Source of the DNA: Actinomycetota bacterium
GTDB lineage: Bacteria; Actinomycetota; Thermoleophilia; Gaiellales; Gaiellaceae
Length of the DNA: 64,000 nucleotides
Direction of reading: 5' to 3'
NCBI GenBank assembly: GCA_004366385.1
Contig: SIRU01000062.1
Span: forward strand, 1 to 64,000
Made by a program: the position numbers and the translations under genes. Under the pieces are notes generated by a model that had not been told where the DNA came from, searched no databases, and was given only the letters and a program-made list of their open reading frames with translations. Positions 1-8,086 of this stretch are shown in pieces. Numbering within the stretch: the first letter of the stretch is position 1; each line of letters starts with the position of its first letter.

Positions 1-648
1 TTCGAGGCGCTCGCGCGCGGCGACGCCACGATCCACGCGCCCGTCCACGTCGACTCGCTGCGCCATGTCCTCGACGGGGAGCCGGAGGGCGTCGAGCGCG
101 CCGGCCCGTGGGCGTTCTCACGTACCTGGCTGCACGAGCTGGAGCGCGACCTCCGCGCCCGCATCGCCGCCGCCGACCCGATCGACCCGGGCGTCGCACC
201 TCCCCCCGAGCCGTGGTCAGCGGACGTCCTCCCGCTACTTCCCTTCGAGCTCCGCGGCGCGAAGCTGTACGAGCCGGGCGCGACCGCGTCCCTCGGCGCG
301 CGCGAAGAGGAGGCGGCCACGCTGGAGCACGAGGTCGCCGAGGCCGGCATGCGCGTGACCAAGATCGAGGACGGCGAGCTCGCGCGGTTCCTCGAGACGC
401 GCGGCGCCCTCGTCAGGCTCGGCCCCAAGCACGCGATCTCGCGCGAGGCCTACGAGCGCGCGCGGGAGGCGCTCTTCACCGAGTGCGCGGCGGCAGGAGA
501 CATAGCGCTCGCCCGCTTCCGCGACCTCGTCGGCACGGGCCGGCGCGACGCGCAGCTCCTGCTGGAGCGCTTCGATCGCGACGGGCTCACGCGCCGCGTC
601 GGAGACCGGCGAGTCCTGCGGCGGGCGGCTACGAGCAGGCGGTCGTAG
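1..648 (+). CDS. selB: Selenocysteine-specific elongation factor SelB, C-terminal part (5' truncated by window edge)
   Basis: The frame is open from base 1 to the TAG at 646-648, giving the last 215 residues. SelB is the EF-Tu-like GTPase that carries Sec-tRNA to an in-frame UGA; its C-terminal winged-helix repeats bind the SECIS hairpin in the mRNA. The GTPase domains lie left of the window. What is visible is the winged-helix region, ending in the family signature FRDLVGTGRRDAQLLLERFD followed by GLTRRVGDRRVLR, very like the last SelB winged helix. A tRNA-Sec gene at 7994-8086 and a UGA-containing peroxidase gene at 1009-1569 lie close by, which supports the call. The 3' end overlaps the convergent prepilin gene by 20 bases. 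selA and selD are not in view and may lie to the left. Confidence 0.88.
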   Translation, partial: FEALARGDATIHAPVHVDSLRHVLDGEPEGVERAGPWAFSRTWLHELERDLRARIAAADPIDPGVAPPPEPWSADVLPLLPFELRGAKLYEPGATASLGAREEEAATLEHEVAEAGMRVTKIEDGELARFLETRGALVRLGPKHAISREAYERAREALFTECAAAGDIALARFRDLVGTGRRDAQLLLERFDRDGLTRRVGDRRVLRRAATSRRS

Positions 649-985
649 TCAGGTCGCCGTCGGGCCCGTCCTTGTACCAGGCCCGTCCGGCCGAGACCGC
701 TCGGATGCAGTAGCCCGCGTCGTCGGCCGAGAGGATCTCGAACCCGTGGATGCCAGGGCTGTAGGTCGCCCGCAGCGCGGCGAGCGTCATCCCGGAGTAC
801 GTGCCCGCGTCCGCGCGGTACGACTCGATCGCCGGGACCGCGACGCGGAGGTTCGAGCGGGCGGTCGCGTCCCCGGCGCGCTCGCGTGCGGAGCTGTGGA
901 ACCCGACGGCCAGCGCGAGCAGTGTCGTGATGATCGCGAGCACGACGATCAGCTCGACGAGCGTGAATCCGTCCTCTCCCCGCAT
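629..985 (-). CDS. Type IV prepilin-like protein (N-methylation motif)
   Basis: A short protein of 118 residues that starts MRGEDGFTLVELIVVLAII. This is the class III signal: a short basic/acidic leader, cleavage after Gly by prepilin peptidase, then Phe-1, Glu+5 and a hydrophobic helix. The rest is a small pseudopilin-type globular domain ending ...GDLTTTACS, with two cysteines (in YCIRA and near the C-terminus) that could form the usual C-terminal disulfide loop. The start at 985 places the leader correctly; an upstream in-frame start at 1012 would add nine residues. No other pilus assembly genes are visible, so it is an orphan pilin or type II secretion-like pseudopilin. Its 3' end overlaps selB tail to tail. 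Confidence 0.8.
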   Translation of the reverse strand: MRGEDGFTLVELIVVLAIITTLLALAVGFHSSARERAGDATARSNLRVAVPAIESYRADAGTYSGMTLAALRATYSPGIHGFEILSADDAGYCIRAVSAGRAWYKDGPDGDLTTTACS

Positions 986-1008
986 GCCGCCTCTATCGGC
1001 GGCGAGCG

Positions 1009-1569
1009 TCACTCACTTGAGGGATGCCAGTCCGGCTCGTCCTCGATCCCCACGCCGTCGGCGACCCGGGTCACGTAGTTGAAGTAGCCGACGACCTGGA
1101 TCGCGTCCGAGATCGCCGCGTCGTCCAGCCCGTGCGGACGGAGAGCGTCGATGTCCGCCTGTTCGATCTCGGCGGCGAGGTGCGTCAGCTTCACCGCGAG
1201 CTCGCAGAGCGCACGCTCGCGCGGGGAGAGCTCGGCAGCACGCCAGTCGTGCGCGACGTGTGCTGCGAGCTCGGCTGCTGCGCCCTCGGCACGGAGGTCG
1301 TCGGCGTGCGCCTGCGTTCAGTAGTGGCAGCTCTGCTCGGCGGACGCCACGGTCGCGAGCAGCTCGCGCTCTTGTCGCGAGAGCCCCGACTCGCCGAACA
1401 TGATCTCCCGGTACAGGGCCATCGACGCCTTGAGCACGCCCGGCCGCAGGCTCATCGCCTTCACGATGTTGAAGACCTTCCCCGCGCGCTCGAGCGCCGC
1501 GTCGTACTCCTCCCGGAGCTCCCCCTCGGCCTCGTCCTCGTCGATGAGGCGGATGAACGGGCGAGGCAA
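1009..1569 (-). CDS. AhpD-like peroxidase-related selenoprotein (UGA = Sec at codon 84)
   Basis: The reading frame from TTG 1569 to TGA 1009 contains one internal TGA at 1318-1320. Before it the protein reads ...ERELLATVASAEQSCHY; after it the same frame continues TQAHADDLRAEG... and ends VADGVGIEDEPDWHPSSE. Both halves match one family, the AhpD/carboxymuconolactone decarboxylase 'peroxidase-related enzyme' group, and together give its normal length of about 186 residues. The active site is therefore Cys81-His-Tyr-Sec84 with His88, aligning with the CxxC...H motif of AhpD (peroxidatic Cys and activating His four residues on). The UGA replaces exactly the catalytic Cys. Family members reduce hydroperoxides, often using thiol partners; the substrate is unknown here. 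TTG is the only usable start: the mmsA TAG lies in frame 9 nt upstream and no ATG or GTG follows nearby. The gene is downstream of mmsA and likely cotranscribed. Without recoding it would be called as two broken genes. Confidence 0.87.
1289..1309 (-). promoter_or_regulatory. Candidate bacterial SECIS hairpin just after the UGA codon
   Basis: In the mRNA, 8 nt after the UGA, GCACG (1309-1305) can pair with CGUGC (1293-1289) around an 11-nt loop. A bulged extra pair with the next C is possible. Position within about 10-30 nt of the UGA fits bacterial SECIS elements read by SelB. The exact fold was judged by eye and the apical loop does not copy the E. coli fdhF loop, so this is a candidate only. 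Confidence 0.4.
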
Positions 1570-3123: not shown

Positions 3124-3783
3124 CTAGCGCGGTGCTCTCTCCGTGGCGGCGAGCGAAGCGGCGCCGAACGCGACCGAGAACGCGCGGCACCAGACCAGCA
3201 CGGTCGCGTCTCCCGCGAGCCGGAGGTCATCGGGGAGCGCGTACTGCTGGTTCCCGACGTTGCCCTTCAGGCGGGCGATCCGCGTGCCGCCCTCGACGTC
3301 CTCGGCACCTGCGCGCGGGACGACGTAGACGTACAGGTCGGGCCCGGGATCCGTGCGGAACTCGGTGAGCGTGAGCACGCGCGAGCCGCCGGGCTCCACC
3401 ACGCGCGCGGTGCCCTCCGTGGAGTGCGCAAGCGAGACGAACGAGCCCTGCGCGAGAGCCGGGCCGGTCGCCACCGTCTCGTTCACGGTCACGTCGCGCA
3501 TCGAGAGGAAGGCGAGCGCGCCGCCGATCACCACGAAGGTTCCGACCGCGACCGCCGAGACGGGAAGCCGGAGCGCGGGCCGGCGCCGCCAGACGGCGAC
3601 CGAGACGGCGAGCACGACCACGAACCAGAGGCCGGTCAGCACCATGGAGACGGCGAAGTCGTCCGTGACCTTCCCGCCGGCGACCCAGATCCCGAGCAGG
3701 ACGACGATCGCCGTGACGGGCGCGAGCAGCACCCGTAGCCACGGCGTGGGCAGCCAGGGGGCGGGGCGTGCGTCGACGGCCAT
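3124..3783 (-). CDS. Membrane-anchored DM13-domain protein
   Basis: A 219-residue protein with three predicted membrane helices in the first half (about residues 16-37, 45-68 and 74-96). A C-terminal DM13 domain follows (about 105-210): LAQGSFVSLAHSTEGTARVV, then LTLTEFRTDPGPDLYVYVVP, LKGNVGNQQYALPDDL and VLVWCRAFSVAFGAASL. The Cys at about 199 is the conserved DM13 cysteine. DM13 domains are proposed to act in electron transfer or redox at the cell surface; the role here is unknown. The domain probably faces outside, as the helices precede it. The gene stands alone between mmsA and a divergent small gene. Confidence 0.8.
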   Translation of the reverse strand: MAVDARPAPWLPTPWLRVLLAPVTAIVVLLGIWVAGGKVTDDFAVSMVLTGLWFVVVLAVSVAVWRRRPALRLPVSAVAVGTFVVIGGALAFLSMRDVTVNETVATGPALAQGSFVSLAHSTEGTARVVEPGGSRVLTLTEFRTDPGPDLYVYVVPRAGAEDVEGGTRIARLKGNVGNQQYALPDDLRLAGDATVLVWCRAFSVAFGAASLAATERAPR

Positions 3784-3864
3784 GCGCGTACCGTCGCCGG
3801 CCGCGCGGCGGCGTTACACGCAGCCGGGTCTCAGGAGGCCCGCGGAGCGTCCGATAACCGAACC

Positions 3865-4107
3865 GTGGGCACCGAGCCGAGACGACTGGAGCGGCTGACG
3901 GCGGAAGAGCGCTCGCTGTCGGCGCAGCGCCGCCGGCTCCAGGACCGCATCGACTTCCTGCGCTCCGGCGGGCGCGGGCCGGACGACGACGTGACGGAAC
4001 TGCTCGACGAGCTCCTCCGGCGCGAGCGTGAGCTCTCCGAGCGGCGCCGCGAGCTGCACGAGGAGATCGAGCTCGCGCGCGTCGAGCTGCTCCGCCGGCG
4101 CGGCTAG
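3865..4107 (+). CDS. RsiG-like small coiled-coil protein, putative c-di-GMP-binding anti-sigma factor
   Basis: An 80-residue, almost wholly helical and charged protein (GTG start). Residues 15-30 match the published RsiG c-di-GMP motif E(X)3S(X)2R(X)3Q(X)3D exactly: E15, S19, R22, Q26, D30. A second helix after a Gly-Pro turn (about residues 34-42) carries a degenerate copy with the same spacing: E54, S58, R61, H65, E69. In Streptomyces, RsiG binds c-di-GMP through two such motifs on an antiparallel coiled coil and holds the sigma factor WhiG. Rubrobacter has a shorter RsiG with one motif that dimerises. This protein looks like an intermediate helical hairpin. No WhiG-type sigma gene is in the window, so its partner is unknown. 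Its stop shares the tetranucleotide CTAG with the convergent ATP-grasp gene. Confidence 0.72.
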   Translation: MGTEPRRLERLTAEERSLSAQRRRLQDRIDFLRSGGRGPDDDVTELLDELLRRERELSERRRELHEEIELARVELLRRRG

Positions 4108-5210
4108 CCGGCGGCCTTCGTCTTGGTCTTCGCCTGGTGCGGCGGGCGCCTGATCACCGCGTCGTCGGCCGGGAAGTAGATCGACTCGTGATCGTCCTCC
4201 CAGCGGACGCGGAAGCGCTCGTGGCCCGGCTCGCCGAGCACCTCGAGGATGACCGCGGTGCGCGGGGAGTCGCCGACCGAGTGGCCGGTGATGACGATCT
4301 CGTCTCCGGGACGGGCGGGCTCGCCTCGCATGCTCTTGGGCATGGCTCGCTCCTTCCTGACGTCGTCTTCCAGTATGGCGTGCTCGATGCCGAGGGCGTC
4401 GGCGATCGCCGCGTACGGATCGGGCCAGCCGGGGACGGCGTAGCGCCCGTCGAAGTCCACGGCGCCGTTCAGCTCCAGCACGACCCAGCCGTCTCCGGAC
4501 GGGAGGAGGTCGACGCCGCCGAAGTCGAGCCCGACCGCCTGGGCCGCCCGGATCCCCAGCTCGCACGCCGCCGCCGGCACGTCCGCGCTGGCGAAGCTGC
4601 CGCCGAGGCTGATGTTCGTCCGCCACTCCGACTCCGCCGCGATGCGCCGGGCCGCGCCGGCCACGCGCCCGCCGGCGACGACGAGCCTGAGATCCTCGCG
4701 CACCGGGCCGACGAGCTCCTGCACGAGCGCGCCGTGCTTGCGGCACCACGGGCGGTCGCGCACGAGCGCAAGCGTCTCCTCGAGCTCCTCGCGGTCACGG
4801 CAGCGGAAGACGTCGTGTCCCCAGCTGCCGAACCGCGGCTTGAGCACGCACGGGAACGGGACCGCGTGCAGGCGCCCGCCCGCCTCGACGTGGCACGTCC
4901 ACGGATGGGGCAGCGATGCCGCCTCGAGCCGCTCGCAGGTGAGCAGCTTGTCGTGCGCCGCGAGGAGCGCGGCCGGGCGGTTGAGGACCCGGACGCCGCG
5001 CTCCTCGAGCGCCTCGACGACCTCCAGCCCCGGCTCGACGCCGTCGAGCGAGGGGAGGACGTCGAGGCGTGTGATCGCGACGTCGCCCGGCCCGAGGACG
5101 TCCGGCGCCTCCTCGGGCCGGAGCGTGCAGGAGGCGATCCCCAACGCCCGCCACGCCTGCACGAGTTCCCAGTTCGTGCGCGTCGGAGTCGCGAGGATCG
5201 CCACGCTCAT
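4104..5210 (-). CDS. RimK-like ATP-grasp protein fused in frame to a DUF1918 domain
   Basis: A 368-residue protein. Residues about 1-285 form an ATP-grasp ligase of the RimK/glutathione-synthetase type: LLAAHDKLLTCERLEAASLP (lid and N-domain), FPCVLKPRFGSWGHDVF (ATP-binding Lys, Gly-rich loop), VVLELNGAVDF (metal-binding Glu/Asn). Such enzymes join a carboxylate to an amine through an acyl-phosphate; the substrate is unknown. Residues about 290-368 are a complete DUF1918 domain (RPGDEIVITGHSVGD, FRVRWEDDHESIYFPADDAV), usually a free small protein. No stop separates the two, and a strong internal AGGAAGGAG sits 7 nt before an in-frame ATG at 4343, so the domain may also be made separately. The 3' end shares CTAG with the RsiG-like gene. 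Confidence 0.82.
   Translation of the reverse strand: MSVAILATPTRTNWELVQAWRALGIASCTLRPEEAPDVLGPGDVAITRLDVLPSLDGVEPGLEVVEALEERGVRVLNRPAALLAAHDKLLTCERLEAASLPHPWTCHVEAGGRLHAVPFPCVLKPRFGSWGHDVFRCRDREELEETLALVRDRPWCRKHGALVQELVGPVREDLRLVVAGGRVAGAARRIAAESEWRTNISLGGSFASADVPAAACELGIRAAQAVGLDFGGVDLLPSGDGWVVLELNGAVDFDGRYAVPGWPDPYAAIADALGIEHAILEDDVRKERAMPKSMRGEPARPGDEIVITGHSVGDSPRTAVILEVLGEPGHERFRVRWEDDHESIYFPADDAVIRRPPHQAKTKTKAAG
4341..4358 (-). promoter_or_regulatory. Internal ribosome binding site before the DUF1918 part
   Basis: On the minus strand AGGAAGGAG (4358-4350) lies 6-7 nt upstream of ATG 4343-4341, in frame with the ATP-grasp gene. It is one of the strongest SD sequences in the window and would start a 79-residue DUF1918 protein. 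Confidence 0.6.
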
Positions 5211-7993: not shown

Positions 7994-8086
7994 CGGAGCG
8001 GCGCCGGAGTCGAACCGACCGAGCCGTGGTTTGCACGACCGCACTGGTTTTGAAGACCAGCTGGGCCACCGGGCCCATGCCGCTCC
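7994..8086 (-). tRNA. selC: tRNA-Sec (anticodon UCA)
   Basis: A 93-nt tRNA folds on the minus strand. It has an 8-bp acceptor stem GGAGCGGC/GCCGCTCC, D-arm GGGCC-CGGT-GGCCC, anticodon stem CTGGT/ACCAG with loop CTTCAAA (anticodon TCA), a long variable arm (GTCGTG/CACGGC), T-stem GTCGG/CCGGC and loop TTCGACT. The discriminator is G and CCA is not encoded. The 8-bp acceptor plus 5-bp T-stem, long variable arm and UCA anticodon are the defining marks of bacterial tRNA-Sec, which reads UGA. It matches the UGA codon of the peroxidase gene at 1009-1569 and the selB fragment at the left edge. Confidence 0.95.

Follow-up and report, generated by a model that had tools for sequence, protein, structure and literature searches.

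RsiG proteins bind cyclic di-GMP (c-di-GMP) and control WhiG-type sigma factors; they are a model case of how internal duplication can turn a homodimer into a monomer. In Rubrobacter, each subunit of the RsiG homodimer contributes one motif to the binding of a c-di-GMP dimer, WhiG is held by flexible N- and C-terminal extensions, and the targets of WhiG include the pil genes and the genes of diguanylate cyclases and phosphodiesterases (DGC/PDE) (PMC8325347). According to the published distribution, single-motif RsiGs occur only in Rubrobacteria and Thermoleophilia (the study had just five single-motif sequences), and twin-motif ones elsewhere (PMC8325347); a literature search for RsiG with Thermoleophilia found nothing beyond this 2021 paper. 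The present report concerns an 80-residue RsiG-like protein with two such motifs in one chain, here called mini-RsiG. It is encoded at positions 3865-4107 (+) of a 64-kb stretch of DNA (positions 1 to 64,000 of contig SIRU01000062.1, assembly GCA_004366385.1) from an actinobacterium of the family Gaiellaceae, class Thermoleophilia; the whole stretch is referred to as the window. The main new result is that a putative WhiG-type promoter links this gene to WhiG. We believe, with a rough probability of 0.55, that mini-RsiG is a WhiG-induced, monomeric, c-di-GMP-binding hairpin that feeds back on the WhiG/RsiG switch.

As in the RsiGs of Rubrobacter radiotolerans (7LQ2/7LQ3/7LQ4) and Conexibacter woesei, the c-di-GMP motif of mini-RsiG is predicted to lie on an antiparallel coiled coil. 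With the single-motif proteins of Rubrobacter and Thermoleophilia it has in common the class Thermoleophilia, the presence of WhiG, and WhiG-type promoters at pil and DGC/PDE genes; however, they are homodimers, whereas mini-RsiG has two motif helices per chain and no N- or C-terminal WhiG-binding extensions. The RsiG of Streptomyces venezuelae (6PFJ/6PFV) also has two motifs per chain on an antiparallel hairpin (predicted for mini-RsiG) and tolerates His for Gln, but Streptomyces RsiG has about 176 residues or more against 80. The distance between the motifs is 39 residues in mini-RsiG and 26-27 in its ultra-compact relatives, whereas the long loop of the Streptomyces protein shields c-di-GMP and binds WhiG. 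The helix duplications in mini-RsiG and Streptomyces RsiG appear independent.

The translation of 3865-4107 (+) is VGTEPRRLERLTAEERSLSAQRRRLQDRIDFLRSGGRGPDDDVTELLDELLRRERELSERRRELHEEIELARVELLRRRG; it begins with GTG, no obvious ribosome-binding site (RBS) precedes this start, and the transcript is probably leaderless. The putative helix-1 motif (3907-3954 (+), residues 15-30, ERSLSAQRRRLQDRID; E15, S19, R22, Q26, D30) matches E(X)3S(X)2R(X)3Q(X)3D without deviation. The putative helix-2 motif (4024-4071 (+), residues 54-69, ERELSERRRELHEEIE; E54, S58, R61, H65, E69) has identical spacing with Q replaced by H and D by E. This pair had been described in an earlier, sequence-only reading of the window, and translation, six-frame counts and shuffling bear the description out. 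In all six frames the perfect motif occurs once, and the motif relaxed to [QH] and [DE] occurs twice, each time inside this open reading frame (ORF); among 1,000,000 shuffles of the protein the perfect motif appeared in 0.03%, and the perfect motif with a second relaxed one in none. The twin motif is not a chance product, because it is unique in the six-frame window and the pair is absent from the shuffles. The G+C content by codon position (0.85/0.46/0.94) resembles that of neighbouring genes, which indicates a coding frame.

The RsiG-like identity proposed earlier also stands. The Pfam family PF22802 (RsiG) matches the protein with 27.8 bits against a cut-off of 27 and recognises both of its halves; in its own genome the profile has matches at E<=1 in three places only, one in the canonical RsiG and one in each half of this ORF, and at E<=0.01 it matches eight of the eight compact homologues in set A1. 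A search of PDB with the family profile placed RsiG structures in the best four positions (7lq2, 7lq3 and 7lq4 at E 1e-4, then 6pfj at 0.008). This profile was decisive; the same search with the single sequence was set aside as uninformative, since designed hairpins came first and 6pfj appeared only at E=3.3. No RsiG model of NCBIfam matched the protein. At the level of sequence, 3865-4107 is a real gene of the RsiG family, because 13 relatives in one Thermoleophilia family share its architecture.

Among 399 genomes of the class, full-length relatives (48-60% identity over 63-72 residues) were found in four genomes of g35, another genus of the same family, where compact relatives reach three copies per genome; more than one copy was counted in G315 (three), G177 (two) and G272 (two). 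When 103 genomes of the family were searched with a profile, genera g36 and g19 yielded a second, ultra-compact clade with proteins of about 75 residues, and no full-length compact match was seen outside the family among 396 genomes of the phylum. Altogether, compact homologues with invariant motif columns occur in nine other genomes. Scanning GTDB contigs with the single protein gave no match; a three-sequence alignment found four Thermoleophilia metagenome-assembled genomes. With E values of 1e-4 to 1e-7, matches in relatives resembled orthologues at first sight, and those that were read proved to be canonical single-motif RsiGs aligning to the second half of the protein.

In the alignment of 14 compact sequences the invariant columns are L11, E15, S19, R22, L25, E54, S58, R61, H65 and I68. 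Seven of these ten are motif positions, namely the Glu, Ser and Arg of each motif and the His of the second, so that the conservation on which the sequence-only reading had staked its proposal is observed. D30 is kept in 13 of the 14 sequences, and Asp stands at position 69 in 11. Of the 13 relatives, 10 have two intact motifs, and the others (G177a, G232 and G315b) have one D to A change each. The second motif had also been called decaying, and this is wrong: studied RsiGs are functional with His at the Gln position (PMC8325347), and H65 is the norm of this family, so the window copy, which keeps E, S, R and H, departs from the motif by Glu at 69 alone. Elsewhere, L163 and L164 (genome G192) are weak relatives of the compact family that have lost motif residues and are possibly decayed or repurposed copies. 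In L081 (5054-7303 (-), G063:C7) a compact twin hairpin is in frame with an acetoacetyl-CoA-synthetase-like ORF, apparently as a C-terminal fusion; it has no separate start codon nearby.

The candidate FliA/WhiG-type promoter occupies 3831-3856 (+) and ends 8 nt before the GTG; it consists of the -35 element TCAG, a 15-nt spacer and the -10 element TCCGATA, with one mismatch to TCAR-N15-GCCGATA. FliA promoters often have TCAA as a variant -35 element. The upstream pattern taken to mark a WhiG regulon was TAAA/TCAA-N15/16-GCCGATAA, and the mini-RsiG gene was counted as having it; flagellar/WhiG promoters are of the type TAAA...GCCGATAA (PMC8325347). Of the 11 family genes whose start could be called, 9 have a matching -10 element 8-10 nt upstream of it; in the background this holds for 0.6% of start-like codons (6-9 nt). 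In seven of these nine, TCAN lies 15-16 nt further upstream. The binomial probability of this enrichment, 1.8e-16, exaggerates its strength because the family genes are related. Neither the promoter nor the loss of the WhiG-binding extensions was remarked on in the sequence-only reading.

Genome-wide, the pattern TMADN{14,16}BCCGATA has 18 matches, compared with 2 for the reversed control pattern. The genes behind these sites include those of PilT, PilB (MshEN+T2SSE), a second MshEN-domain protein, an HD_5-domain protein, a GGDEF-EAL protein (its frame crosses an assembly gap), a LuxR-type regulator and small unknown proteins, along with mini-RsiG and a pilin of the window; some sites have no convincing gene downstream. 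The pilin gene (type IV pilin/pseudopilin, 629-985 (-), 118 residues, the likely start being the ATG that ends at 985) has the second WhiG-type promoter of the window (994-1020 (-), TCAAG...GCCGATA) with its ATG 8 nt downstream, and is apparently co-regulated with mini-RsiG. This putative set resembles the Rubrobacter WhiG targets in that it comprises pilus and c-di-GMP turnover genes. At three loci of the source genome (L174, L182, L183), genes of small or unknown proteins follow WhiG-type promoters at a distance of exactly 8 nt and are candidate new WhiG targets.

The source genome (2.73 Mb in 63 contigs, 97% complete, high-GC) also has a canonical single-motif RsiG (EDEISYRRRMLHGRID) at C30:102701, adjoined by pgsA-, FHA- and MerR-like genes; FHA and MerR genes also stand beside rsiG elsewhere in the class and phylum. 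The gene of mini-RsiG lies off this conserved locus with its downstream FHA and MerR genes, and has its own WhiG-type promoter, whereas inspection by eye upstream of canonical rsiG found no WhiG-type element but a sigma-A-like TTGACC...TTTACT. A WhiG-like sigma gene, which it had been proposed to look for, is present at C61:36231 (FliA/WhiG, 289.6 bits against a cut-off of 189.6), and there are eight GGDEF domains. Given the canonical RsiG, WhiG and GGDEF proteins, a Rubrobacter-type switch is present, and mini-RsiG is an additional paralogue.

The helical hairpin envisaged by the sequence-only reading is what AlphaFold2 predicts when run on the window sequence and the fetched related loci only. 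The prediction for mini-RsiG has helices at 3-34 and 41-79 (mean predicted local distance difference test score (pLDDT) 88.8, predicted template modelling score (pTM) 0.70) and a turn at residues 35-40 (3967-3984 (+)). For an ultra-compact protein the helices are 2-35 and 43-74 (mean pLDDT 88.0, pTM 0.67). Imposing the Rubrobacter coiled-coil register (residues 45-83, centre 64, motif E59-D74) gives expected turn centres of 39.5 and 38.5, respectively, and the ultra-compact loop 36-42 fits the latter. For K60, R72 and R77, with which Rubrobacter RsiG touches WhiG, mini-RsiG has the basic equivalents R16/R55, R28 and R33/R72; in its second helix, Glu67 stands in the place of the Rubrobacter R72. 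The chain ends a few residues beyond each helix, and neither the WhiG-binding extensions nor a WhiG-binding inter-helix loop is found. The WhiG of this genome keeps K-x3-G-R, spaced like K53/G57/R58, which contact c-di-GMP in Rubrobacter WhiG, as do all seven of the 12 other sigma loci that could be read (the pattern is narrow, so that 8 of 13 were readable in total). A FliA/WhiG sigma factor is present in nine of the nine other genomes carrying the compact form.

We presume the following mechanism. Given its two-motif core, one 80-residue chain could present the two-sided site for the c-di-GMP dimer that the canonical RsiGs of Thermoleophilia and Rubrobacter build as homodimers. Judging by its promoter pattern, the gene would be transcribed by WhiG, like the type IV pilus and c-di-GMP turnover genes, so that mini-RsiG would be made when WhiG is free, i.e., when c-di-GMP is low. 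As c-di-GMP rises again, the protein would bind it and feed back on the switch of WhiG and RsiG. Its most likely role would be that of a second, weaker anti-sigma factor that docks c-di-GMP on WhiG; that it soaks up c-di-GMP is less likely. The promoter thus suggests a built-in feedback loop. Several points weigh against this proposal. AlphaFold tends to turn any heptad sequence of this kind into a helical hairpin, and a fold search was uninformative, with generic helical hairpins and no RsiG among the matches listed. The predicted loop 35-40 of mini-RsiG is compatible with the expected centre of 39.5 only within about one helical turn, hence the helix register could be one turn off. Finally, the window copy has Glu in the second motif at the very position where Asp reads the Watson-Crick face of guanine.

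The mini anti-sigma factor is our first choice, with two close rivals. The protein may, with a much smaller probability, be a WhiG-induced c-di-GMP buffer or competitor of RsiG that makes no contact with WhiG and prolongs WhiG activity, i.e., a positive feedback. Such a role would suit a family that has kept the c-di-GMP-binding core alone and lost the WhiG-binding extensions, that in the ultra-compact clade has little beyond two motif helices, and that can have several copies per genome; a search of the literature on c-di-GMP sponges found nothing useful. However, WhiG-free RsiG binds c-di-GMP only at 6.5-25 uM (PMC8325347), which is weak unless the protein is very abundant, and the WhiG-contacting basic residues are kept in the window protein.

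It is comparably unlikely that mini-RsiG is a c-di-GMP effector that borrows the RsiG fold for some other partner, such as the type IV pilus machinery or another sigma factor. The apparent co-regulation with pilT, pilB and the pilin would agree with that, as would the in-frame fusion in L081 and the other sigma-70 region 2-4 proteins of the genome. No conserved neighbour indicates a specific partner, though (the neighbours were listed and not annotated), and WhiG accompanies the compact form in every genome carrying it.

The sequence-only reading suggested that the protein could be an evolutionary intermediate. We consider it improbable that it survives from a passage in which the one-motif dimer became the Streptomyces two-motif monomer. 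It does have two motifs in one chain, in a class where single-motif RsiG is the rule, and each of its helices is similar to single-motif RsiG, with mean identities of 0.45 and 0.49 over 24 columns. Yet it is a paralogue that coexists with a canonical single-motif RsiG at the rsiG locus, it is without the WhiG-binding regions common to both end forms, and a tree of helices places it in a lineage of its own. The tree was built on 31-residue helix units and, having few sites, is a lead only. All compact helices fall together in it (0.96, on very short sequences), along with two long-twin helices, the L097 helices and the long-branched Streptomyces alpha-5; the first helices of the compact and ultra-compact proteins are joined (0.89), and most of the long-twin helices described below form a separate group (0.86). 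As a lead only, it favours separate fusions over the compact form as a step towards the Streptomyces form.

The weakest alternative, a chance ORF or decayed pseudogene with a coincidental motif in a GC-rich gap, could invoke the same-genus genomes, where orthologue and interval are missing, and the GTG start without an obvious RBS, but it is refuted by the motif conservation in non-syntenic homologues of nine other genomes, with the codon-position bias, fixed promoter spacing and shuffle test also against it, and we give it next to no credence.

At the canonical locus, genus g35 has a long twin-motif RsiG in open frames of 166-206 residues with two RsiG units (L090, L091 (206), L092, L101, L102, L103 and L105; the others 166-193). 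These proteins (L090-L105) belong to the same bacterial family as mini-RsiG and also have two motifs per chain; unlike it, they keep both N-terminal LPDL..LSDDEL segments and the rsiG locus with FHA and MerR downstream. Judging by their sequences, they apparently arose by in-place duplication of the whole single-motif unit, and they are likely the anti-sigma factor proper. A long twin-motif RsiG in Thermoleophilia is new compared with the published distribution. One genome, G063, has both a fourth twin-motif RsiG-like ORF, L097 (G063:C1:402077), and, at a distance of about 25 kb, a second WhiG-type sigma gene (G063:C1:426872); the two are a possible second sigma/anti-sigma pair. We would suggest tentatively, at somewhat less than even odds, that Thermoleophilia fused RsiG at least twice, once as the long in-place duplication and once as a WhiG-driven hairpin of 75-80 residues without the sigma-binding parts, and that the hairpin is a feedback c-di-GMP receptor or sponge and not a classical anti-sigma factor.

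The mini-RsiG ORF occupies the gap between two minus-strand genes, a divergent one for a DM13-domain membrane protein (3124-3783 (-)) and a convergent one for a RimK/DUF1918 ATP-grasp protein (4104-5210 (-)), with a 4-nt overlap with the stop of the latter. It was not found at the syntenic place in the same-genus genomes G003, G005 and G006; there RimK/DUF1918 directly adjoins the MMSDH gene, therefore the DM13 gene and mini-RsiG are a lineage-specific insertion. The window also includes a selenocysteine neighbourhood: an AhpD/CMD-like protein with an in-frame TGA in a CHY-U motif (1009-1569 (-)), the C-terminal winged helix of SelB (1-648 (+)) and tRNA-Sec (7995-8086 (-), RF01852, 68.9 bits).

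One family of Thermoleophilia thus holds single-motif, long-twin and mini-twin forms of RsiG, so that the dimer-to-monomer transition becomes testable with natural proteins. Should the hairpin of 75-80 residues bind c-di-GMP, it would be a natural receptor of very small size that could serve as a sensor or sponge. So far only indirect feedback via the DGC/PDE genes has been proposed for the switch; if our reading is true, the WhiG-type promoter of mini-RsiG would add a direct feedback arm.
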